A DNA stretch of 64,000 bases from Spisula solida. Its lineage: Eukaryota; Mollusca; Bivalvia; Venerida; Mactridae. The notes under the pieces were generated by a model. The model had not been told where the DNA came from and did not search any database. It was given only the letters and a program-made list of their open reading frames with translations. Every line of letters begins with the position of its first letter. The first letter of the stretch is position 1. The stretch covers positions 4,602,530 through 4,666,529 of the forward strand of contig OX365947.1 in assembly GCA_947247005.1 (NCBI GenBank), given 5' to 3'. This document shows positions 4,601 to 63,265 of this stretch, one piece after another. The position numbers were made by a program, and so were the translations under genes.

Positions 4601-7600
4601 ATTAAAATTGATATGTCAACATGTTCTCATGTCTTAAAATCGCGAATGTACTGTATAGTTATTACTATATTATACTATAATAAACTTGCAGAATAAAGCT
4701 ATAGCGGAACTTTTACGTGCCATTTATTCCAAATATTAGAAACACCAACACTCGCGAATACTAGCTACAACGTACGTGAAACGTTTTATAATTGGCCCAC
4801 ACAAAATTTTACTCAAGTTTTAATATTTGTTTATAGCAAGCATCCCGACCACTTTAGAGAAAGGTTCTTTCGCATTTATTTCTTAAGAATATAGACAGCA
4901 AAAGAATGAAAAATGAAAAACAAATTATCACGAAAACGGGATACAACGTATTCAAAACGTTGATGTATTTTGTAAACTCCTGGTTTTCGACATTTCCGAA
5001 ATCACTAAAGTGTCAATTAAAAAATTCTAGCCGAGCAACTGCCATGAAATTTGGGATAAAGCTTCTATTATAGTTACTCTACTTGTTGCATGTACGAAAA
5101 CAGTATGTTGTTCAACAATATTTTTCGTAAAACATAAAAATGAAAAATCACATATTTTAAAATATCATTTAAAAATACATATAACATGCATATTATAAAA
5201 CAAACGTTATCGTGTGATTCAGTATATACAAAATTTTGTGCAGGCCAAGTTTCATGTAAATAAATGCCAAACTTTTTCGGTAAAATGCAAATATCAGTTT
5301 TAGGGGGTTTCCCCCAAATCTTAAAATATCTTAAAAACTAGCCGAGCAAAACAGTTATGGGTTTGCACAATCACTCTTATGGGTGTGTTCTTCATAAAAA
5401 TCAGGTGTTTGATACCTCTTGTACAGAAAAAATTAAGAGTTAGCAATTACCTTAAATGTTAAACACTTGTCTAAAAGTAGTGTAATCAACCATATGTTTG
5501 GTGATAATGAAGCATCAAATGAGCCAAACATTAACAGAATGATTGAAATTTATATCACTTGCGCTCACAAAGAATGATACTTTCACTCATGGCTATGCCA
5601 CTCGTAAAATGTCCACAAAGAATGATACTTTCACTCATGGCTATGCCACTCGTAAAATGTCCACAAAGAATGATACTTTCACTCATGGATATGCCACTCG
5701 TAAAATGTCCACAAAGAATGATACTTTCACTCATGGCTATGCCACTCGTAAAATGTCCACAAAGAATGATACTTTCACTCATGGCTATGCCACTTGTAAA
5801 ATGTCCACAAAGAATGATACTTTCACTCATGGCTATGCCACTCGTAAAATGTCCACAAAGAATGATACTTTCACTCATGGCTATGCCACTCGTAAAATGT
5901 CCACAAAGAATGATACTTTCACTTATGGCTATGCCACTCGTAAAATGTTGTTTTCTAGGACCTCTTGGTGAAATAAAATTTGATTTTTTCAACCGAAATC
6001 AACAAAAACCTCTAGTTCACTGATAACATGTCAACATTTCATTGCAGAGCATAACTTATTCTGCTTTCTCTTTAATGACAAAATTAATGTGATGACAAAA
6101 AATTGTAATAAAGTTTATTTCACCTTTTATGTCCTTCTATAACATGCAGACAAACACCATTCGTCTGAAATATAAAATTAAGAAATTATTTTCATGAAAA
6201 TATTTATATATTTGTAGTAAAAAAAACTTCAATGATTTGACAAAATGTCTTTTATGGAACAGTTTACAATGTCTCATGTTATCAACTTATATACAAGTAA
6301 GTTCATTGCATTAAAACAAGAACATATTTTACAGCAAGTACACGAGGCATCTGTACACTTAACGGCACTTCTAACGCTACCTTTAATATATTACAGTTTT
6401 CTTTAAAACTCCTCCATGAATTCTCCTGAAATTCGGCACACTCAAACCACAATATTTGACACTAGTTCTGACCAAATTTCATCTAAATCGGACATTCGAC
6501 TATTGCTAGACACTTCTTCGACTGAACATATCCTTATATTGAAAGTCGCATTTTTCATGCAATATGTTGGTCATCCGGTTGTTATTTAAGAAATAAAAAT
6601 CTGTTCGCGTATTTTGTCGGTGAATAAAACATTGGCAGGAGTTCGGATGCGGAAAAATTAAATCACGAGTGTGTAGCAGTGACTAGTAAATAAAGTTATG
6701 TTGTTTTGCCAAAAGCAAATGTTGACCGTTACCATAATGGGTCTGGAGTCGAGGTCAACATGACATTGGATCTATTGGTGACCAAAAACGATATTTAACT
6801 GATTCAATTTAATTCTACAGCATACTTTTACATATTTGTTGTTAAGAAATTATGTGTATTTTAACTTTCAAGTACAAAAATGTAGCCCTCATTCAGGTTT
6901 AACATTGATATTGAAAATATCGTTTTTTTATTCAGAAGAGACATGTATTTTGAGGCGTCCTTAGCTTAACAACTGTATTTTGATGTAACAGTCATAAGAT
7001 TATAAACTTAGAAAACTTGCAACAAACATTGCACTCTGATATTACAATCTTCTGACACATACCCTATATCTTCGCCCATAAGTCAGGTAAAAGGTGTCAA
7101 AAATATTTCAAAAAGTTACTTATTTATCATGACCCATCCTTTGATATCAACATAATAAGGCATACATTGTAGTTCTTATAGAGGATTTTTTACATTTATT
7201 CAGTCAATATCTGGTTGACTTTGGAATTTTTTTAACTTGATTTTACTGACTTATGGGCGAGTATATACAGTTTATTATAAGGAAATAAATTCACTTACAG
7301 GATCCCAGAGTCTAACTGTCTTATCTATAGATCTGAAATATAAACAATATTTCCCTGATTATTCACTAGATTACTGGGTACTGTTTTATCAAAGCACTAA
7401 CAGAAATCATAAACTTGCAATCAAATTTATTTTTTTCATAATTTGTTTACAATTATAAAGTGCGTAAAAGCTGCAATATTAATAATGATTTAGTTAAAAC
7501 ACTCCTACAAACCATATCCGTAATCAATGTGCAGTTGTTAAAGAGATATAAAGCATTTAAATTTAAGCGCACTTTTAAGATTTTCGTAAGTGCTTTGACA

Positions 7601-45335: not shown

Positions 45336-45588
45336 ATGGGCAGAAAGTTGAAAACAGAACCGAGTCCGGACAGCAGTTCGGCCAGTTCCGGTTCGTACGA
45401 CGACAATGCCCCGGATGGTGGTTGGGGATGGGTCGTCTGCTTCGGGTCATTTCTTCTAAACTTTATATTGGACGGAACAATGTTCTCATTCGGAGTGCTT
45501 CTGTTGGAATTATTGGATTATTTTGGACAAGGGAAAGCGAAAACCTCGTGGATAGGATCTTCCTTGCTTGGAATGAGTATGTTCTTAG
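45336..45588 (+). CDS. SLC16-like coding exon 1
   Basis: ATG at 45336 gives a 25-residue Ser-rich cytoplasmic N-terminus before PDGGWGWVV and TM1, then KTSWIGSSLLGMSMFL (TM2). Donor TTAG|GTAAGT. An in-frame non-ATG stretch precedes the ATG, so this is the first visible start. Confidence 0.88.
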
Positions 45589-48500
45589 GTAAGTACCTAA
45601 TCTAGTCGATGTTCCATTGTATCCACGTGACCGCATTCAACGTCATCATTTCCATCATCAGCATCATCAACTGTAACATTATCACAATCATTTCCCCATC
45701 TTCATTATCATCATCATTATCATCATTATCATCATCATCACCGCCACCAACAACAACCACAAAAAACCCCCAAAAACACAACAACAACAAAAACAACAAC
45801 AACATCATCATCATCATTATAATCAACATCAACAGTATCATCAGCATCAGCAGCAACAACAATAACAACAACAAAATCATCATCATCAGCGGAAACAAAA
45901 ATGATAATAACAACAACATCATCAGCATTATCATCACCATCATAATCCCCATCATCATTAGCAGCAGCAGCATCAACAGCAGCATCAGCAGCAACAGTAA
46001 GCAGCAGTAACAACAATAACAACAACAAATAGATTGACAAATAGCATTGTTCGAACATTAGTTTAGTTGCTGCAGACTCATGAACGCCGTATGTACTTTC
46101 CGAATACAGTAACTAATACATGAAGCTGTTTGACTAATGTACCTACTCAGCATATATAGAACAGGGTCATACATTTACTCCTATCTAAATACCCATCACC
46201 TGTAAGTAGATCTATTATGTCAGATAACATACTAACCTCAAAGCATAGTATGAGTCTAGTTATATAGTCACACCTGGACACACGTACACCAGGATGTTTA
46301 CAACAATCGATCATATACACTAGACTCCTAAGACTACAAGTACTAGTTTTATTTCCATGCAAATCTTTGTTTGAATCAATCAGAACACTAATACTCGCCG
46401 CTGCTAACTAGATAACGTTTTTATCAATAACATACTAGTCAGTACTATGTATCATTTTTTTGTGCTTTCCCTAGAAATCATATTTTGTTCTTGCACTATC
46501 AGTCCAAGTAACCGCTTTGGACTTCAAAGAAATACATTAAGTGCATAAGAAAAAAATGTTTAAGAGTTGTCTAACGTTTAGAGCATTGGTCTGCGTGATC
46601 ACAGCACTACATGTACTTCGTTCTAAGTGTGTTATGTACAATCTGAATCTCAAATATTGAACTCAACTGAGGCAAAAATGCAACTAAAAGGTTGAAATAA
46701 ATAACTGAGCGTGAGAGTGCTCTCAAAGAGTTTCGTAATATTGGATCAGGGCCTGTATACATACATAAAGCAGTTCAAAGTGATATTGGAACAGGGCCTG
46801 TATACATACATAAAGCAGTTCAAAGTGATATTGGAACAGGGCCTGTATACATACATAAAGCAGTTCAAAGTGATATTGGAACAGGGCCTACATACACGCA
46901 TAAACCATTACTTGCACTAAGAGGTTCATCAAGTTTAATATGCCGAGAATCTTTATTACCGAAACATAAAGTTGTTGATGCTCAATACGTTTCATGTTTT
47001 ATTATGTTGTTAAATGTAACGATCAAAACCACCAGAAGGAATCCATCATATAAGGGGGGAATATTGTTATTTTTTATGGTGTTTCAACAACTTGTATCTA
47101 ACTTTGATGTTCGGCAATTATACCTCGAGGGTTGTTACGTAATTATGTGCAATCTTGATGACTCAGGTTATGATTGCCATTTTTGTTACTTAGAATGTTT
47201 TGTGTGCTGATTTTTTTCTCAGCAAGTTACACATGTTGTATTTACAACATGAAAGATTCAATAAAACGTAATTGTAATAAGTGCTGATACATCACTGTTA
47301 AATGATTAAATACAGACAAGTATGTTACATACAAATATGTAATACAATGTATTATGTATTCAGACTTATGGTCCGTCCGTCCGTCCGTCCGTCCGTCCGT
47401 CCGTCTGTTTGTCTGTCTGAATCAACGGAATTTCAACCGCACGAATTTGTTATCTTACCGCAATCTATGAAATTTAATATTCAGGAAAGAAAACAAAATT
47501 TTATGTTGAAAACATTTAATTAGCACAGACTAGATCTAATCCCCATTAATAATCGTTTTCTTGTATCGATCACTACTAACGTTTACGTACTCTAATAATT
47601 CCTTTGAAGATAATCAACATTATGTGCTTTTCTTGTATGATGGATGATTGGGCATATATTGTACCGTATTCCAGGGTTAACTCGCGGGTGGGGCATACGA
47701 TGCACCGTATTCCAGGGTTAACTCGCGGGTGGGGCATACGATGCACCGTATTCCAGGGTTAAATCGCAGGTGGGGTATACGATGCACCGTATTCCAGGGT
47801 TAAATCGCAGGTGGGGTATACGATGCACCGTATTCCAGGGTTAAATCGCAGGTGGGGTATACGATGCACCGTATTCCAGGGTTAAATCGCAGGTGGGGTA
47901 TACGATGCACCGTATTCCAGGGTTAACTCGCGGGTGGGGCATACGATGCACCGTATTCCAGGGTTAAATCGCAGGTGGGGTATACGATGCACCGTATTCC
48001 AGGGTTAAATCGCAGGTGGGGTATACGATGCACCGTATTCCAGGGTTAAATCGCAGGTGGGGTATACGATGCACCGTATTCCAGGGTTAAATCGCAGGTG
48101 GGGTATACGATGCACCGTATTCCAGGGTTAATTCGCAGGTGGGGTATACGATGCACCGTATTCTAGGGTTAATTCGCGGGTGAGGTTTACGATGCACCGT
48201 ATTCCAGGGTTAATTCGCGGGTGGGGTATACGATGCACCGTATTCCAGGGTTAATTCGCAGGTGGGGTATACGATGCACCATATTCCAGGGTTAATTCGC
48301 GGGTGGGGTATACGATGCACCGTATTCCAGGGTTAATTCGCGGGTGAGGTTTACGATGCACCGTATTCCAGGGTTAATTCGCAGGTGGGGTATACGATGC
48401 ACCGTATTCCAGGGTTAATTCGCAGGTGGGGTATACGTGGTACCATATTCCAGGGTTAATTGGCGGGTGAGGTTTACGATGTGCCGTATTCCAGGGTTTA

Positions 48501-51500
48501 ATTCGCGGGTGAGGTATACGATGTGCCGTATTCCAGGGTTAATTCGCGGGTGAGGTATACGATGTGCCGTATTCCAGGGTTAATTCGCGGGTGAGGTATA
48601 CGATGTGCCGTATTCCAGGGTTAATTCGCGGGTGAGGTATAGGATGTGCCGTATTCCAGGGTTAATTCACGAACAAGAATAGTAGAGAAATTGGCTCAAA
48701 ACACTATTTCACGATTGACTTATTCGTAAATTTTACCAATTAATGTTTAAAAAAATCGCAGTTTCAATTGACCTAAAATGTACGTTAATTAAAAGTATTT
48801 AATTTGACGAAATAATTATTAGCAACCGCTGATATAAAAAAGTGGTAATTAGTATAATATAGCAGGCAAAAAATACTCATCAACTAATTAAAACATGATT
48901 TAATCCAGAGAATTTGACACGACTCTCGACCTTCAATTAGCATAATTTAACAGCGGATATATTATCTATATTAATTATCCCGGCTGTATGTTTTCATAGG
49001 CGGGGAGTATCACGAGTACGCTCGATGTGTAATACCAACACAAATCTAAAGAACCGATATTGCATGATTAGCTCGCGGAAATTTATACGTGTATATTCAA
49101 CGCAAGTACCTTGTTATATATTAATGCATAAAGGTCACGATCAGTTCAAATTCTCTGTGCTATAATCGAACCTGAAGGTACAGTCATACAGGCATAGTTA
49201 ATATCGTCCTACTGTGGTTTCTGCTACAGCAAAACCTCGAAAATACGAGCATCGATGCTACGCGCATCCGGCCTATGTCGAGCAAAATTCGAATTCCCGT
49301 CAAATTTGCTCTATGCTGTATATTAATTTATCCCTTTAAGTCGGTTAGAGTCATACATACATAGTTGATATCGTCCTAGTGTGGTTTCTGCTATATGTTA
49401 TAAATGCACATACTGATATGCCATACTGCTATTTGCGCCAGTCCTTTATTTTCAAAGATTTTGAGAGAACGCCTACCAATTTCTAAATCAAAATAAGACG
49501 AATTCACACCTGTTGCGAAATAATTTATTTATATTCTTGGTCAGTTTCTACATCCTCATATATCAGTGTTTAGTCCAGTTCCCAGACTACCACACACACA
49601 AAGGTGACGAATACTCTGGTGAACGAGAATGAGTTTCTAGGGCCTGTTAATTTATTTTAGCTCTACACTCAACCATTTTTCAAATTCACTTTTCAAACCC
49701 CAAATACGTTTAACTGTGACCACAATGTTTGACGATAGTTTGCTCACAAACGTTAAATATATGCAATTGTCCTAACACTTGAATCAATAAAAATCAAAAC
49801 CACGTGTCAAAGAATGCATGATCAGTCATTCGATAAATTTTGTATTTTCGCAATCAAATAATGTGATCACAGTGAAAGGTATTTCGGGTTTGAAAAGTGA
49901 CCAATTAGAAATGTGGTTGGGTGTATTGCCATACATGTTCGACAACTTATATCAAACACTCTCGACACCTCACCAGTCCTGATTGGGTATTTTGGTATAG
50001 GGGAAGCCAGTTTCCCTTTCATCGGATCATTTGAGAGATCACCTATTTATATGCAAAGTGCCCATCGGCAATCTTTTGGATGAATGAACAATAAAACCAA
50101 TCATTCACAAACAGCTAGTTGGTGGGTACATTTCGAGGGTTGCCCGCAAAACCGCCGTAACTGTTTATTATCAAAGAAGGATGTACAAGTCTTACAGGCA
50201 ACCCTCGAAATTTTGCATATGAATACCTTTATGTACCAACGTGATCTCTCTGCTGGTTAAAGCAAATAGCGGCAGGGATCCATTTTCCCAATTTCAGTAA
50301 AAGGTACCTTTCCAATTTGAAAATGATCCATTTTCCCAATTTCAGGGAAAACAATTCCCAATCTGGTTCTGCAATGTTGCATCTAGGCTGCATAATTCAT
50401 ACTCAGATCAAAAGTTCGTGCATTTTATATGAAGAAATGCATGACATATCATGCACAAACCATTTTATGTTCAATTTCGTCATTAATTAGATAGATACAT
50501 TTGTTTTTAAGAATTCACAACTTCTTACAAAAAGTTCCAATTTGCGTCAAAACGCTTCGAATTTTCCCAATTTGTCCCGTACTAGTACATTTCCCATCAA
50601 GTCAAGCAAAAAAAGCACTTCGTCAGTTGCAGTCAGTAAGGATAACGCTGATTTCTGAAACCCTTAGTGGACTTGTGGAATCCATGTGGACGCATACTAC
50701 TGTACATGTACCCTTTATTAACACCATGCTATTGTATGTCTTGTAGATTTTACATGTACAATATTATATATATATATATTACAATGTATACTATACGCAT
50801 ACATGTAGTGTATTCATATATATATCGCTGCTACTTATGACCCGTAACTTATAAGTTATAAGACCCATGCATATTTAAAATCTGCATCACGAGGCGCTTC
50901 TGATGAACCTGTTTTCACTTTTGTACTTACGACCCTTTTCTTAGAACTAAGCCATCGATATGTTGACCTCTTAGAACTCATTTTGATGGTAATATAACTA
51001 CTGATGACGTGCTGAGCTGTTTTATTAACCGCGAACCAATAAATTACGCGGTACATACTTTTAAATGTCGATATATTTTTATTTAGTTAATTGTATTTTA
51101 CGATGTAATTAATGGAAACAATCTCGTATTATGTCGACGCAGGTGGTTTAGTAGTCTATTCCCGTAATTGAATGAAAACCAAACATTAACAAAATGAGTG
51201 TTCTTTTTTTTCTAAAAAAAGAACACCAACTATCGTAACGTGAACGTAACTTTGGACCTGTATCCTATACTTAGGACTTTGAATTTCAATGTTTTATACA
51301 AAAGAAGAAGACGTTTATTTCTTATCAATATACACAACAAATGTAATTTACGATTAGGCCAGAGATCACCCATGATCATAACTTGTTATTTTATACATAA
51401 AGTTTGTATTTTCTGCAGTATGATACAATTAAATGCGAACGTATATATATAAACACGTTGTTTGAGTGTGAAAGTTGTCCGATTATTTACATTAACTGTC

Positions 51501-54500: not shown

Positions 54501-57500
54501 CGAAATTTCAGGTACACTAGTAATAGCAGTGTAGCAATACCACGTGACTTTTGGCTACAGGCCCAAGACGAAATTTGTCAGCATCCTGTGAAACATGTAT
54601 TTTCCACGGTTACACAGGGTGCTGGACAAAACGGCACAGCTGCTAAAAAGATATTAAACATGTATACCATGGAATGCAAATAATTTTCCCCTTAGCGTGG
54701 CATATATTTCATAGATATTTTTGAAATGGCGATCTCCATACGCATAGCAAAACGAGGGTTTGAAAATGCAATAGCCCCATTAATTAGTCTCCGATGTTCA
54801 CTCTGTTTGCGCCATGGACGCTAGTTTAAAATATAATCAACTTGTTATACGCCTTCTCGTTCCCTTTAATAAGTAGTATATCTTCTATTTGCAGGACCTG
54901 TGGTTAGTATGCTGCTGGAGAGATTCAGTTGTCGACAGATAACTATTGTCGGTACACTGGTGTCTGTGTGTGCGTTTGTAGTCAGTGTGTTTTCACCAAA
55001 TGTTGAAATGTTGATCCTGACGTATGGTATTATTGGAGGTAAGTGTTCATATAACTGGTCTAACATTTCGCCCGTCCAGTTGGTATATTATCGTTTTGCG
55101 TTAAAGACCCATTGTGAGTATTGCAGTCCTACGGAGAACAGCCAGTCATTGAACTGAATATAATATGTGTACCTACTATACAAGACTAATTTTAATGCAA
55201 AGCATCAAAGACGGCGCACATGTTCTCAAATATCGCAAAGATAGAGGTCAACGTTGAAAGAGCTCTATACATTTTGTAATTTATATCATAAGGTCTCTAG
55301 TAGGGCAGTCGGTTCGTTACACGTGACAGTTGTCTACAACGGTCAACCCTGAAATATCTATTTAAGGTCTCTGACAGGGGGTCGGGTAGTAGTAGGTGGC
55401 AGTTTTCTACGACCGACAACCCTGAAATGTCTATATAAGATCTCTGACAGGAAGTTGGTTAGCTATAAGTTGCAGTTTTTTTCTGACGTTCAACCTGGTT
55501 CACAATCGAACCTATCGCAAACGTGCTTTGCCGGCAAACATGTTGTCGAAACAATAAATGTTATTGCAATATCAACCTACTAAATTGTTTTTATTTCTTT
55601 TTTGAAAAGGAAATAAATGACTCACTACTGTTAAGGAGATTAAAATAACCGTACGTGTTCTGTTTAATGCATGTTGGTCTGGAAAAACAGTATTTTACAT
55701 ACAATACGTGTATTAGTCAGCATAACATGTTTGCCAAAAACTTAGAATTAGTCCACTTCGGCTAATGCCAAACTTATTGTTAGAAACTGTGAAAAATAGC
55801 CATTTCGTGTTTAAAATACTGAACATTGTCTGTTTCAGGTGTGGGATTCTGTATGACGTTTGTGTCAGCAATCATTGTCGTTGGTTTATATTTTAATCGC
55901 AGGAGAGCCATAGCAACTGGAATTGCCATGAGTGGCAGCGGTCTTGGAACATTTGCGTACGCATACTTGACCAATTTCCTCATTTCAACATTTGACTGGA
56001 GGGGCACTATTCTCATTCTAAGTGGCATATTGCTCAACGGTGTAGTTTGTGGGTTGTTATTCCGACCCTTATTGCCTTCAAAATTAAACGAAAGTAGATC
56101 TGAAACAGTGTCACGTGACAAAAATGACGTCATTGATTCCGGTGAAATAAAGATACTTCTACCAAAAATGGATTCGCAAGTGAACTATCTTAAAGCATCG
56201 GCTTTGCCCACACGGTTGTCAATGAGCACGGATATAACAATGATTCAGAAAGACTTTGCCATGGAGTCGTCAGTTGCTAAAAGCTTCTCTAGTCAGAGCG
56301 ACTGCAGAAAACGCGAGTTTCAAACAATCTCAAACCAAATGTCTAAGAAGGACATATTCTACAGTGGTTCTTTAAGACGCCTTCCACATCAAGGTGACTC
56401 TCAAATACTGTTGCCACGCTCTGTTAAATTCCAAGATACGGACTCAGACGACAAGAACAAATCCTTTTTGGCTACATGTGTGGAAACCACTAAAAGCAAC
56501 TTGTCGTTGTTTAATGATAAGGTGTTTGTGCTGCTGCTGTTCACAAACGTTTGTTGGACAGGTAAAACAAAACATCTATTTTATCAATTTACATCATTAT
56601 AATAACACTATTCCGTTTATTTATGCCACACCGATATAATCTAGTCACACGTCGAGAATTTCAGTTTTTAAAACCTTTGCCTTAAAGCAAATCTATAACA
56701 TGATCTAAACACTTTGATGTGGTGAAAGCATTTCATTTTACATTCTTATCTATGTTTGATTTGAATGAGCAAACTGTATACGATGTTACATTTGCGTATA
56801 CTAGTAAGGGACCACTTGCTGCTGGATATATCACTGGCTTAAAGTTAGAAGGTCGTAGGTAAAAAATAAATATTTTGAGAAAACAAGAAAAAATGTCTGA
56901 AAACTAACATTACTCTATACTTATGGAAAAACAAGCTCTTTCAACTTCAGTTCCGTCAGCATGACCATTTCTGATTTTCACGAAAATAGGCTCATAAGAA
57001 GCGCATTGAGATGCAGATTGCAAATATGTCTCAGTCTTATAAGGTCGTAAGTAGTCCTTACGACCTTCTAATTCTAAGCTAGCGATATGACAAAATCAAC
57101 ATCGTGATCTAGAAACACATATAAATATGTTTTTAAACAAACCAAACAAATGGTGCCTGTTCCAGCTATATCAAACTTCTGCTATTGAAATGTAAAACCT
57201 TTCAAGATTTTGGAACATCTAGCGTAACATAGTTTTCATATTTTTATCAAGTTCAAAGGTTTTTGGCATAATCAGCATTTTGATGTCGCGAGAGTGTCAT
57301 AAGCCATTAGACATGACAATGGTAATTACACTTTGTAATAAAGCTTTCACATGTGATCGTTTAATGTATGTAGCAGATATCGTTAAAGTGACGTCACAAT
57401 GATAGTTGCAGAAAGTAGTATTTGTGACGTTTCGGTAGAAAAATATATTTGAGATAAGAATACTTGTTCATTTAGAATTATTGAAGTCGTTTTGTAAAAT

Positions 57501-60500
57501 TGAAAAAAAATCGCTATTTTATTTTATCATTCAACTCATTTATTAAATTCAATATGAAAAACAAAATATCCTCTATATCACGTGCATCACTATATATAAG
57601 TACATCGCGTAAAATTGGTAATTTTGATGAACTTACGAGATACAAGACTATTTGCACTTCTATGACAACATTTATGCTAATGAACCTACTTATATATTCA
57701 GTTTGATATGATATGTTGTATAACGTTACCAATAACACTGCAACAAACGTCCCATGTGATATGGACACTTTAATACATTGTACAGTGAAGTCAATGATAC
57801 GTATAAAGTACTAACATTATGATGATGGTATCTCACCGCTGACACTATTAACTGTTATATCATCATATATTGTATGTGATTTGAACTTACATATGTTACA
57901 AAACTATCTATACCCGTCCACAGCATTCACAAAGCAATGGTACATAATGTTGCTTTCGTATAATGCCTCTTGTAAATATGAGAATGATATTGAAATTATG
58001 TCAATACAACTGTCCCTAACATCAGTAACACTGTCCCTTACATTAGTAACATAATCATAAGACTACATGAATCCCTTTCCTTTAAACATTGTCGATTCAT
58101 ATCAACTATTTCTATTAGTTTATCTGAAAATATAAAACATGTGTTCATTGACTGACCGTCGTTATGTTTGTTTACACCCATTTGGAGATATATAGATACA
58201 TTTGTATATACATTGTTATAATTATGTAATCACCACCAACAACAGCAACAGAACTAACAGCAACAGCAACAATAGCAATGAAATTAATACCAACAAGTAA
58301 CTCAAAAGTAACCCTTTATACATGTTGTATAACATATAACTGGTTTATACAATTAACTTGTAATATACACTTGTACATGTATCGAGTATCGGAAATTATG
58401 AATGACTGTAGCTCAATACTTCGTTCGTCTAGCAAAATTTGTGTAACTGTCAAACAATCAAAAATGAAATTTTGGAATGAACGTTATTTGTCTGAATGTT
58501 CTCGCTAACAGCACTGATGTCTGGATAATGAGGGTGAACTTTTGTTTCCTTGTTTCATTTTATATTCATAATGTAATTACAACGTTAAATTTCAATTAGG
58601 TTGAATGACTGATACGCTATGTAAATACAGGACTTTAGTCATGCTATATATAAATATAATACCATCAATATTTTAGATGCCCATTCGAACAAAATATTTT
58701 TACAGACCTCTTTGAAATTGAATACAGAAAACATTTATGTCAGGCAAGAATCTTACAACTTTGAACACAACACTATATAGTCATTATGAGAACTAACAAA
58801 GTCGTTATGTTGTTGTCTATGACGCACCTCTTCACCACACCCATATATCGTATAAATGCATTCTTTTTTCAGGTCGGGCCTAGAATGGTCACGTGAATCT
58901 GACCTGCGGACGGGCCTCGACATTTTGTAATTTTCAGTGAGTTATTTGATGAATGGGGGAAAGTATCGTGTTGGGAATATAGAAACTATCAGACAAAGTA
59001 ATCAAACTATAAAACCCCGACCTTTATAGTAAATATGCTTCCAATTCCTGTCTCTAGTCTCACGCATCCTTTATCAGGTTTAAGTAACTGATTCCTGAAT
59101 TGCTTTAATATGTCTGGGGTTTTCTGATAGTCACTGTTTTGTCTTCATGATCAACGAAATCGAACTTATTTAAATTTTCTTATTTTCAGACCGTGAAAAT
59201 CCAGTCATTGTCATGAAGTCTCATTGGGTAAAACAACATCAACAACATATCTTGTTGTAAATCAAATTAATTCTTACTAGTCCACCCCTACCTCAATTTC
59301 TATTTTTCAACTTCTCCAATAGTAACTTTAGGACATTCCAAATTGTTGATTTCCTTGAAAATGACTGGGTTTTATGTATATGTTGAATTTAAAGCATGTC
59401 TGTATCCTGTTTAATTATGAAATGACAAATCTAAATGATGAAGTCACATAATTGTACTAAAGATTGTTATAATCTCATTGTAGTCCAATATCTTGACATA
59501 TTCGTAAAGGACCATCTTTCTTTTGTACCTTTGTAACGTATTGTTTTCAAGTACCTATTGACTTAATATCATTATAAATAGCCAGTCGCTTTTACGTTTC
59601 ATTTTGTGTAATCTATTATTATAACCCTGCTCTGTTTAGTACGAACATAAATCATAACGAACGTAAATATTGTATAATCCAACATAATTATCGACATTGT
59701 TTACATTGTGTGTCTATCTTCCTTTCAGTACAATCGGTGCCATTGACGTATATTCCTGATCTTGGTGTCTCCAAGAACTTACCAACCTCACAGGCAGCCA
59801 TGTTGATCTCTATTGTTGGCGTCACAAACATATTCGGTCGTATATTATCAGGGATAATCACCGACCTATTCCACATCAAGAGTTCTGTGACGTACACCAT
59901 CGCCTTGTTTACGGCGTCAATAGTTAATTTTCTGATGCCATGGTGTGAAGATTTTCTCAGTCTGGCTATATGTGGTGCCGTGTTTGGTTTATGCATGGGT
60001 GAGCATACACTTCGTTAACTAATGTTATTTTCAAGGAGCAATTAATGTTACTATGTATAGCTACGGCTGTATCAATGACCAATTTAATGTTACTATTTTT
60101 AGCTACTGCTGTATCAATGACCAATTTAATGTTACTATTTTAGCTACTGCTGTATCAATGACCAATTTAATGTTACTATTTTAGCTACTGCTGTATCAAT
60201 GACCAATTTAATGTTACTATTTTTAGCTACTGCTGTATCAATGACCAATCTAATGTTACTATTTTTAGCTAATGCTGTATCAATGACCAATCGAATGTTA
60301 CTATGTTTAGCTACGGCTGTATCAACGACCAATTTAATGTTACTATTTTTAGCTACTGCTGTATCAATGACCAATCTAATGTTACTATTTTTAACTTCGG
60401 ATGTATCAATGACCAATTTAATGTGACTGCTATATCAATTAGCAATTTAATTTTACTATTTTAACTATCGCTGTATCAATGATCAATTTAATGTTTCTAT

Positions 60501-62976
60501 ATCTAGCTACTGTCGTATCAATAGGCAAATTAATTTTCCCTTTTACAAACGCTGTTTAAATGAGCAATTTAGTGTAACTATTTAGCGACTGCTGTATCGA
60601 TAAGGACTAAATTGTTTCTATTTAGCTACTACTTAATCAATAAGGACTAAATTGTTTCTATTTTAGCTACTACTGTATCAATAAGGACTAAATTTTTTCT
60701 ATTTTAGCTTCTACTGTATCAATAAGGACTAAATTGTTTCTATTTTAGCTACTACTGTATCAATAAGGACTAAATTGTTTCTATTTTAGCTACTACTGTA
60801 TCAATAAGGACTAAATTGTTTCTATTTTAGCTACTGCTGTTTCAATGAGGACTATATTGTTTCTATTTTAGCTACTACTGTATCAATGAGGACTAAATTG
60901 TTTCTATTTTAGCTACTGCTGTATCAATGAGGACAATTGTGATCGCTGACCATCTTGGTATAGAGAAGCTGACAAAATCGTTCGGAATGGTTGCGTTATT
61001 CCAAGGAATTGCTTTCATGACGAATGCTCCCCTTGCAGGTAAATACATTCTTATAATAAATAAATAATGTACACTGTATCTCCTGTATAAGACAAAGGCC
61101 AACGAATCTGGTTCGTACAGTGACGTTTCTACCACACTAAACAACAAAACAAACATAGGTGATGGAGCATTCCAATGAAAGGACCAATGTGCTATTAGAG
61201 CGTATAAATAAAAGATTATGTTATTGAAGCCACAAATGTCTTAGTATATGTAGTTTATATCTATACGTTATATTACCCTTGTTTTAAGTCATTCTTCGGT
61301 TTCGTAAATTAAGTTGATAATAATGCAGATGACTAGAAACTAACATAATAAATAAATAAAGCATGGTTCTAACATTTAATATCATATAAACATATTATGT
61401 TCCAAAATTAAAATATTGTTGATACCTATGTCAAGGTTTAAATATACATACATTTAGTACATACAAATTAGTCGAACACAAGGTTATTGCTTGACTAAAA
61501 GTTAGTCGGTCACATTTAGTTGATACCAAATACACTGGAGTCAGCATTTAATAGATTACGCCAGTGCGTTACATAGAAACGTAAGGAATGTACATGCGTT
61601 TGTCTTTGTTTAAATCTGAGATTTTTTCACGCCCGAACATGAGTGATTATAATGTAATAACGACAAATAACGCTGATGTCACAGGTTACTCCGTAATGAA
61701 CACGAACACTGATAACGTGTTGGTTATATATAAATGTGTCCTTATTCCTTCTCCTTCTCTCCTACTTGTTCCCTCCTCGTCCCCTATTTGGTGTGCAATG
61801 AGACAAAACTGGCATCTAGAAACGTCCTACTCGACAGTAAAGGAGATATGTTAAGTTTCACAGGAGGAATGTTACATTAACAAGGAGGTTCTAAGGAGAA
61901 TGTTTATATCTTGTGTCTACCCAAGTCCGCTCGTTCAAAGCATATCTGTCTGATAGCTTATCTTAGATGCGTGTTTTGTCTTGTTTCTGTGTCCCCGAGG
62001 TTAGAACTTTGATACCGTCATGTCATTCTGAATTCATTTCCAATCACATACTTTTCTTTATTAACTACTGGCTAATGCTATACGATTGTTATAAAAAAAC
62101 ATATTTCGGTAGTCTAGTAATAAGACTGTATAAATTGACCAGCTGTGCGATCATACCCTCAACATATGGTAATAAAACGACTAATCAACATTGTAATAAA
62201 AGTGCCATTCCGTTTTACTAATTAAGCCATCGTTAATCATAGAAGAGCAACCATTTTATTATTTGCTTGATGTCACTTTGACTTCTCTAGCTACTGTCTT
62301 AATCCTTAGTTGAAACGTATTTATTTCCCTAATATTATGCAGTATACATACGATTAAATATACGGTAACAACAAACAGTTTAAGGCAAAGTATTAGTGTG
62401 AAAAACACATGGTCTTATTACATTCTTCTCCTTAGATAGACATCCAGTTTAATTAATAACAAAAGTATCAACACTTTAGCTATTGGTATATGATGCAGTG
62501 ATTTGGGTTGAAATCAAACAGGGATAAAGAGATCAAAAATGCGCGGAAGAGTTAGAAGTCGTATCCTTGGTCCGTGTCTTTATTTAGACACGTAAAGTTT
62601 CTTTGAACCAAACCGATGTTTACAAAATAGAACTATGTTCATCAGTGACATGTTTTTGTTTCATTTAATGTAGTAATTTTGATGTTATAATTTGGAATAA
62701 ATTAGAATGTCGTAACTCACGGCGAACAGTCGCAGGTGTTTATATGTAAACTACTAGTGTTTCTATTTACAGTTATGTCTTTTTTCAGGTTTTCTCTACG
62801 AGAAGTTCGATTCTTATGTGATGCCATTTAGTTTTGCTGGAATAATGTACTTCCTATCTGGTGTTTTCTGTGTAGCTGTACAGTGTGTGGATAATGACAA
62901 ACCTGAACGTGTCATTGAAGTGTTTATAGATCGTCATGAGGATGCAGCTCATGCGAAGAATAAATCGGGATCTTGA
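45336..62976 (+). CDS. SLC16 (monocarboxylate transporter) family protein, six coding exons
   Basis: Joined coding exons: 45336-45588, 54895-55038, 55839-56561, 59729-59998, 60913-61038 and 62789-62976, giving 567 residues plus stop. All five introns are phase 1 and have GT/AG ends. Family hallmarks: PDGGWGWVVCFGSF at residues 26-39 (TM1), YFNRRRAIATGIAMSGSGLG at about 150-169 (TM4/5 signature), a long polar loop at about 200-345 between TM6 and TM7, then six further hydrophobic segments and a charged C-terminus. This is a plasma-membrane transporter fold of the major facilitator superfamily. At MCT1 positions known for H+/lactate transport the Lys of TM1 aligns with Phe and the TM8 Asp with Asn407, while the TM8 Arg is kept (Arg411). 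This fits orphan-type SLC16 members (A9/A12/A14-like) better than MCT1-4. The substrate cannot be inferred. Confidence 0.9.
45646..46030. repeat. Compound CAT/AAC trinucleotide microsatellite
   Basis: catcat-, aacaac- and cagcag-type triplets, imperfect, starting 58 bp after the exon 1 donor of the SLC16-like gene. Open frames on both strands are artefacts. Confidence 0.93.
46735..46906. repeat. 45-bp minisatellite, about four copies
   Basis: Units share gatattggaacagggcctgt and atacatacataaagcagttc, in SLC16-like intron 1. Confidence 0.93.
47369..47420. repeat. (GTCC)n / (GTCT)n microsatellite
   Basis: Seven to eight gtcc units followed by gtct variants. Confidence 0.95.
47662..48666. repeat. 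41-bp minisatellite, about 24 copies
   Basis: Unit core ccgtattccagggttaaatc, then gcaggtggggtatacgatgca. Variants (aactcgcggg, aaatcgcagg, aattcgcggg, gaggtatacgatgtgcc) are clustered in order along the array. It lies in SLC16-like intron 1. Confidence 0.96.
48900..49166. mobile_element. MITE, TATAGTCCAGAGAATTTGA family, copy 3
   Basis: Starts taatccagagaatttgac and ends caaattctctgtgctata; colinear with 9464 and 19990 copies. Confidence 0.85.
50137..50212. repeat. Small hairpin repeat, copy 2
   Basis: cgagggttgcccgcaaaacc ... aggcaaccctcgaaatttt. Matches 32150-32227, including ttattatcaaagaaggat. Confidence 0.78.
50819..50960. mobile_element. Partial MITE of the ATATCGC family
   Basis: atatatcgctgctact at the left and cttacgacccttttc..agccatcgatat at the right, with the ctgcatcacgaggcgcttct interior shared with 53250 and 57000. 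Confidence 0.7.
51200..51227. repeat. Short perfect-arm hairpin
   Basis: gtgttctttttt faces aaaaaagaacac across a few bases. Confidence 0.8.
51775..52246. repeat. (TCATCATCG/TTG)n microsatellite
   Basis: About 470 bp of cgtcatcat/tgtcatcat words with interspersed tgtcctaat. Translates as Val/Ile or Met/Thr runs, which are not a gene. Confidence 0.96.
52681..52891. mobile_element. Possible MITE with GCCTAGGTC ends
   Basis: gcctaggtcccactga and tcagtgtgacctaggc form imperfect inverted ends around about 180 bp. No second copy is seen in the window. Confidence 0.55.
53155..53331. mobile_element. Partial MITE of the ATATCGC family
   Basis: gatttttatgaaaataggct, ggtcttataaggtcgtaagt and ctgagccagcgatat match 56826-57089. 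Confidence 0.75.
53690..54245. repeat. 76-bp minisatellite, about seven copies
   Basis: Units share aactcatttcaaacgcccgg, catattgacacgtgatactg and acaagaaagtgaattc, in SLC16-like intron 1. Confidence 0.94.
54527..54722. mobile_element. Internally deleted foldback MITE, copy 3
   Basis: Starts cagtgtagcaataccacgtg, jumps from the left arm to the centre (cctgtgaaac...ggttacacagggt), continues with the right arm to the cccttagcgtggca region and then stops. It lies about 170 bp before SLC16-like exon 2. Confidence 0.85.
54895..55038 (+). CDS. SLC16-like coding exon 2
   Basis: Acceptor TTTGCAG|GACCTG, donor GGAG|GTAAGT. Encodes GPVVSMLLERFSCRQITIVG and a hydrophobic stretch ending LILTYGIIGG (TM2-TM4 region). 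144 nt, symmetric phase 1. Confidence 0.92.
55289..55495. repeat. Three diverged 73-74-bp tandem copies
   Basis: Units share aggtctctgacagg, gcagttttctacga and tcaaccctgaaat. In SLC16-like intron 2. Confidence 0.8.
55839..56561 (+). CDS. SLC16-like coding exon 3
   Basis: Acceptor GTTTCAG|GTGTGG, donor ACAG|GTAAAA. It encodes TM4-TM6 with the YFNRRRAIA signature, the large polar loop rich in Ser/Asp/Lys, and most of TM7 (KVFVLLLFTNVCWTG). 723 nt, symmetric phase 1. Confidence 0.93.
56826..57089. mobile_element. MITE of the ATATCGC family, complete copy
   Basis: Ends atatcactggcttaaagtta and attctaagctagcgatat; interior includes gaaaaaatgtctgaaaacta and cacgaaaataggctcataag. It lies in SLC16-like intron 3. 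Confidence 0.82.
57090..59728 (+). other. Rest of SLC16-like intron 3, nothing recognised
   Basis: A/T-rich, no gene or recurring repeat identified; one short caacagcaacag run at about 58230-58280. Confidence 0.4.
59729..59998 (+). CDS. SLC16-like coding exon 4
   Basis: Acceptor CTTTCAG|TACAAT, donor CATGG|GTGAGC. Encodes VQSVPLTYIPDLGVSKNLPT, SIVGVTNIFGRILSG (TM8, with Asn407 and Arg411) and TM9 up to FGLCMG. 270 nt, symmetric phase 1. Confidence 0.93.
60040..60912 (+). repeat. 41/42-bp array made of copies of the exon 5 splice acceptor
   Basis: About 21 units, each of the form (t)tttag|ctactgctgtatcaatga followed by an A/T-rich spacer. They end exactly at the real acceptor and first bases of exon 5. 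Left block: 42/41 bp with accaatttaatgttac; right block: 41 bp with ggactaaattgtttc; a degenerate zone lies at 60430-60580. The array fills about 95% of intron 4 (59999-60912). Confidence 0.95.
60913..61038 (+). CDS. SLC16-like coding exon 5
   Basis: Acceptor ATTTTAG|CTACTG, donor GCAG|GTAAAT. Encodes ATAVSMRTIVIADHLGIEKL and SFGMVALFQGIAF, a conserved SLC16 segment (TM10-TM11). Its first 22 bases are repeated about 21 times in the intron before it. 126 nt, symmetric phase 1, so skipping it would keep the frame. Confidence 0.92.
61039..62788 (+). other. SLC16-like intron 5, nothing recognised
   Basis: A/T-rich. Short open frames only and no repeat shared with the rest of the window. Confidence 0.4.
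62789..62976 (+). CDS. SLC16-like coding exon 6 with stop
   Basis: Acceptor TTTTTCAG|GTTTTC. Encodes GFLYEKFDSYVMPFSFAGIM, the last hydrophobic segment (YFLSGVFCVAVQCV) and a charged tail ending KNKSGS, then TGA at 62974-62976. Confidence 0.92.
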
Positions 62977-63265
62977 AAAACGTTTGTTATCACTTAATGA
63001 TCGCATAATATAATTCTAAACAGTAGAGACAAGCGTCTATTGACAAGTTCTACTGTCTACGAAACACTGGGCGGAGCCTAAATGATACTGCCAATTGATT
63101 GGTTGGCCAATGCGTGAGTTGTACGACGTAATGAGCCGGTTTGGTTTGAAAACTTAGAAAAAGCATAATTGGAAGGAGTTCTGCGCTTGTTAATAGTAGT
63201 TAACTCAAAGGACAAAAAGCAGAACGCTCAACGTTGTACGATACAATGGGTTATGTACTTCGTAA

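Follow-up and report, generated by a model that had tools for sequence, protein, structure and literature searches.

The window, that is, the whole 64,000-bp stretch of Spisula solida DNA analysed here, contains an SLC16-like transporter gene whose exons 2 to 6 are linked through phase-1 introns, and the donor 59998|59999 and the acceptor 60912|60913 of intron 4 fit this gene model (Table 1). The predicted product matches MFS_1 (domain match, E=1.3e-38) and is similar to the solved MCT1/MCT2 chains (E about 1e-33), as expected of an SLC16 (MCT) transporter. Its best relative is the Mactra antiquata protein P0001 (79% identity), and several of the closest relatives carry the names monocarboxylate transporter 14-like or 9-like. 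The gene lies in repeat-rich surroundings: 31 minisatellite loci cover 10,623 of the 64,000 bp of the window (16.6%). One of them, a 41-bp unit repeated 24.5 times at 47663-48668, lies in intron 1 of the SLC16-like gene, although its unit is unrelated to that of the intron 4 array described below; an array at 5566-5948 of the window consists of eight copies of a 48-bp unit that are 98% alike, and three of its reading frames are open, two forward and one reverse.

Table 1. Coordinates of the SLC16-like gene and of the tandem array in its intron 4 (positions in the window)
Feature	Position	Strand	Remarks
Exon 1	ends at 45588	+	
Exon 2	54895-55038	+	
Exon 3	55839-56561	+	
Exon 4	59729-59998	+	phase 1 at both ends
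Intron 4	59999-60912	+	914 bp; the part outside the array is limited to the initial 20 bp (by alignment) to 32 bp (by Tandem Repeats Finder)
First unit, degenerate	60019-60060	+	AG kept; 30/41 identical to consensus; in Tandem Repeats Finder the array begins at 60031
5' block, eight units (six of 42 bp, two of 41 bp)	60061-60394	+	AG at 7/8 ends
Degenerate middle, five broken units	60395-60585	+	AG at 2/5 ends (60506, 60585)
3' block, eight units of 40-41 bp, nearest the exon	60586-60912	+	real 3' splice site at the end of the last unit
Real 3' splice site	60893-60912	+	candidate CTAAA branch point (A at about 60896), pyrimidine tract, TAG; motif only
Exon 5	60913-61038	+	source of the exon part of the unit: initial ~18-21 nt (perhaps ~28 if a 2-nt gap is allowed)
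Exon 6, last coding exon	62789-62978	+	

Between about 60019/60031 and the true acceptor, intron 4 is occupied by a direct tandem repeat of the minisatellite type, as seen both with Tandem Repeats Finder and by alignment. The former detects a 41-bp period with 22.2 copies (score 820) at 60031-60931, and within it a 42-bp sub-block at 60031-60428, while a wrap-around alignment to the 41-bp unit resolves 22 units across 60019-60912 and continues past 60912 into exon 5 with 28/30 matches. The repeated unit thus straddles the intron-exon boundary, the authentic sequence of exon 5 included. A 20-nt string formed by the AG and the 18 bases that open exon 5 is found, besides the real site, in five exact copies within the intron, and we estimate that the chance of such recurrences in 914 bp is negligible. 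These three lines of evidence confirm the original prediction of a 41/42-bp array of about 21 copies of the acceptor and exon 5 start filling intron 4. On the donor side (59999-60018) nearly no ordinary intron body is left; the matching intron of a neighbouring SLC16 paralogue measures 810 bp and has no such array.

Each unit reads, in order, as a piece of exon (~18-21 nt), a tail that in most units includes a branch-point-like motif, a pyrimidine tract and a TAG, and units match the consensus at 25 to 40 of its 41 positions. In the 5' block the exon piece is almost identical to exon 5, and the tail is a variant of its own, so that seven columns distinguish this block from the 3' block. Homogenisation proceeds block by block, since units 60103 and 60144 are identical to each other, as are units 60749 and 60790, and such identical neighbours are read as a mark of recent turnover. 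It had also been claimed that every unit keeps its AG, which holds for 17 of the 21 decoy positions and fails at the four that end at 60394, 60425, 60464 and 60545. Positions -20 to -1 are the same as at the real site in four decoys (60666, 60748, 60789 and 60830) and match it at 19/20 positions in two others (60707 and 60871). Because the first four are letter-identical over this segment, local signals alone should not separate them from the real site.

The AG closest to the real acceptor on its upstream side is at 60889-60890. The spliceosome is described as choosing the AG that comes first downstream of the branch point, with AGs less than 12-15 nt from the branch point being open to bypass (PMC1431707). 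If the first-AG rule is followed, the position of the nearest upstream AG would confine the branch point used by the real acceptor to the last unit, where the CTAAA motif listed in Table 1 is a candidate.

Entry at a decoy would have one kind of outcome in terms of reading frame. All 17 AG decoys reach a premature stop before exon 5 and none of them (0/17) gives an in-frame insertion, so that the truncated transporter foreseen in the original prediction is, in principle, what decoy entry would yield. Entry at a 41-bp unit is read for 13 codons and then meets the TAG of the next unit, as had been predicted, while the companion claim, that 42-bp units remain open until the next 41-bp unit, was not borne out: no stop closes the 42-bp run after 60184 before a TGA at 60424-60426, which lies in a broken 31-bp unit. 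Between the stops and the exon 5-6 junction there are 126 to 895 nt, so in all 17 cases they lie well upstream of the last junction (at least 126 nt), as expected of splicing coupled to nonsense-mediated decay (NMD). By the vertebrate rule, here extended to a mollusc, such truncated messages, if made, should be NMD targets. GTRAG, GTATG and AGGT are all absent from the array (60019-60912), and therefore neither a cassette exon nor a recursive splice site is to be expected, and both readings were rejected.

As to the source of the repeat, the start of exon 5 codes for ATAVSMRTIVIADHLGIEKLT, and the same residues are found in the M. antiquata protein. Among the best 70 of 108 relatives, this segment is gap-free in 61; the remaining nine comprise six that are blank, two that are badly aligned and one, P0010, that lacks 12 residues. 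P0010, a MOT9-like record from Mya arenaria, lacks exactly these 12 residues at the start of its equivalent of exon 5, as if an acceptor downstream, inside the exon, had been chosen, and this gap may reflect a prediction error. At position 17 of the unit, several copies of the 3' block have an A in place of the G that the exon retains in an ATG (Met in the closest relatives), and this change against a conserved codon points to a polarity from the exon to the intron copies. In the assembly (931,988,947 bp in 36 contigs), the core of the unit has at least 13 matches with up to three mismatches, all of them in this locus and the real site included, and the tail of the 5' block has at least nine, again all in this locus. 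The SLC16 paralogue, located on the other strand about 20-37 kb past the end of the window, has the same phase-1 intron, and no tandem array was found at the acceptor of that intron, which indicates that the intron is older than the array and that the array grew out of the boundary. The conservation of the segment in relatives, the array-free intron of the paralogue and the restriction of the core to this locus support the start of exon 5 as the ancestral source and the intron copies as its duplicates, and so uphold the earlier claim to the same effect; the seven columns at which the tail of the 5' block differs leave some slight room for a second origin of that half.

The array is therefore best regarded, with good though incomplete confidence, as a minisatellite of the type named 'mirage' in amphioxus, a near-neutral array that the gene tolerates and not one dedicated to control. 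Judging from the anatomy of the unit, a segment of about 41 bp, made of ~20 nt of the intron end and ~21 nt of exon 5, would have been duplicated in place, and the duplicated intron end would have included the branch-point candidate, the pyrimidine tract and the TAG. The array would then have grown and been homogenised in two blocks, probably via slippage or unequal exchange, as the identical neighbouring units suggest. Splicing would stay at the authentic, exon-proximal acceptor, leaving the copies inside the intron, because no other copy would be followed by a complete exon with a 5' splice site. An occasional entry at a decoy would produce a truncated and probably NMD-sensitive mRNA, the stops being present in the sequence. 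That splicing is normal here is what the amphioxus precedent leads us to infer. In a genome this rich in minisatellites, some arrays should seed across exon boundaries by chance.

A second reading is that of a splicing brake, in which the decoys compete with the real acceptor so that a fraction of the transcripts is truncated and sent to NMD, the number of units setting that fraction. It draws on the AG kept at 17/21 decoy positions, six of them with a near-perfect -20 to -1 context, on the stop that is reached from all 17 AG decoys, and on the self-poisoning of the 41-bp units, whose frame is closed by the next TAG. The AG columns, however, drift at the average of the array, with 4/42 changed cells (9.5%) against 68/714 (9.5%) for all non-diagnostic columns together, AG included, and among 28 adjacent pairs of non-diagnostic columns (the AG pair included) 20 are changed in at most four decoys, four being the value for AG. 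These change rates, over 21 related units and with low power, give no sign of selection either keeping or removing the decoy AGs. Intron-derived columns have fewer changed cells (22/315) than exon-derived ones (45/378); as related units inherit their changes in common, this difference cannot serve to test for selection, yet it does not favour strict neutrality. The mirages of amphioxus, moreover, are reported or inferred not to disturb splicing, and the 'tunable splicing brake' of the original prediction is left as a possible but unsupported and rather unlikely role. Its more elaborate form, a rheostat tuned by copy number, in which serial acceptors of full strength, with unit numbers varying between individuals, would set the amount of productive transporter mRNA and the TAG of each 41-bp unit would stop the frame opened by the previous one, also appears doubtful, with about one chance in ten in our judgement.

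An assembly artefact, either a false expansion or a collapse, is very improbable, since the units are diverged (25 to 40 consensus matches, as given above) and an array of only 0.9 kb should be spanned by HiFi reads. A dispersed satellite or transposon-derived repeat, resembling the exon by chance or having invaded it, could be imagined in a window so rich in minisatellites, but neither the core nor the tail pattern is found anywhere else in the assembly at up to three mismatches, and relatives conserve the exon piece as coding sequence; with no copies reported outside the locus, this origin was rejected as extremely unlikely. The creation of the intron itself by tandem duplication of an exonic proto-splice site, for which tandem duplication at an exon edge has been proposed as a route (PMC3087553), has an equally minimal likelihood and was rejected, because it calls for an intron absent before the duplication while the paralogue shares the phase-1 intron without the array, and because the array has no AGGT.

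Further arrays on exon boundaries (period of at least 20, straddling a match edge and the intron) were searched for in 30 SLC16 loci, six of which come from this same gene, and in 30 kinase loci, and none was found, a result that gives no rate, given that the sample is small, that match edges do not always coincide with exon edges and that long open frames make up many of the kinase loci. Two short matches with a period of 16-17 were seen (L030 and L058). One candidate, L020, an SLC16 paralogue, was rejected as an in-frame coding repeat: its tandem repeats, one with 2.8 copies of 42 bp (1737-1853) and one with 3.4 copies of 24 bp (2102-2183), are coding and sit in the open frame after the exon match. 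Three kinase reading frames with nearly identical scores (254, 248 and 604 aa) recur together within about 40-45 kb at eight places (in G000: C3, C5, C6 with two places, C14, C16, C18, C19, and partly C11), which suggests either a large DNA virus that has integrated or a large mobile element present in multiple copies.

The intron offers a natural test of how the spliceosome distinguishes the genuine acceptor from copies that are nearly the same and lie one unit away. As the local sequence is constant between the real acceptor and the copies, exon context, distance and order must decide. In this respect, the downstream exon sequence reportedly has a role in the choice between duplicated splice sites, in work by Reed and Maniatis.

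Several known systems share part of these features. The internal tandem repeats found at exon-intron boundaries in human segmental duplications (PMC2812944) are, like the clam array, boundary minisatellites that alter gene structure, although they are described as able to form novel introns, many of them supported by transcripts, whereas the clam intron is old. The arrays of dual-specific splice sites in polyubiquitin UBC genes (PMC10809524) are also tandem repeats bearing splice sites, but their monomers are reported to be bounded by AGGT, a motif that the clam array lacks at its unit boundary and throughout 60019-60912. Intron gain by tandem genomic duplication, as far as it has been described, likewise involves tandem duplication at splice signals, with the difference that the clam intron predates its array. 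Among molluscs, the TSSK1-like gene of abalone (PMC6905558) has an intron minisatellite with a 27-bp unit that varies between individuals, although the available text of that report does not mention a unit spanning an exon boundary, in contrast to the clam array. No molluscan mirage or boundary array was seen in the open-licence literature searched, to the extent that its texts were accessible, which is no proof of absence in print.

The closest likeness is to the mirages of amphioxus, which have been defined as minisatellite-like duplications of intron-exon boundaries (PMC3087553). The BflGb6 gene repeats the 3' end of an intron together with the 5' part of the exon, with six and three units in two haplotypes, splice signals are present in many, not all, of the amphioxus repeats, and the RT-PCR results pointed to regular splicing, although the authors allow that the copies could act as cryptic sites (PMC3087553). 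Adh and troponin C have been added as further lancelet cases, said to generate no aberrant mRNAs, and PGBD5 as a similar one, for which the absence of aberrant mRNAs was inferred by the authors (PMC3902484). As in these published accounts (BflGb6, BflGb9, Adh3, troponin C and PGBD5), tandem copies of a boundary lie in the clam beside the authentic one, many but not all of them keep the splice dinucleotide (17/21), and homogenised clusters with diverged edges have their counterpart in two blocks with identical neighbours. By its sequence, then, the clam array has the features of a mirage: a tandem repeat, a boundary-spanning unit, partial retention of AG and homogenisation by blocks. Length polymorphism and normal splicing are further features reported for amphioxus. 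Compared with what has been described in amphioxus, it differs in belonging to a bivalve mollusc, in filling nearly the whole intron, and in its 21 decoy positions, against the three and six units of the BflGb6 haplotypes. It would extend mirage minisatellites beyond cephalochordates, adding a new phylum to a type of array that is already known.
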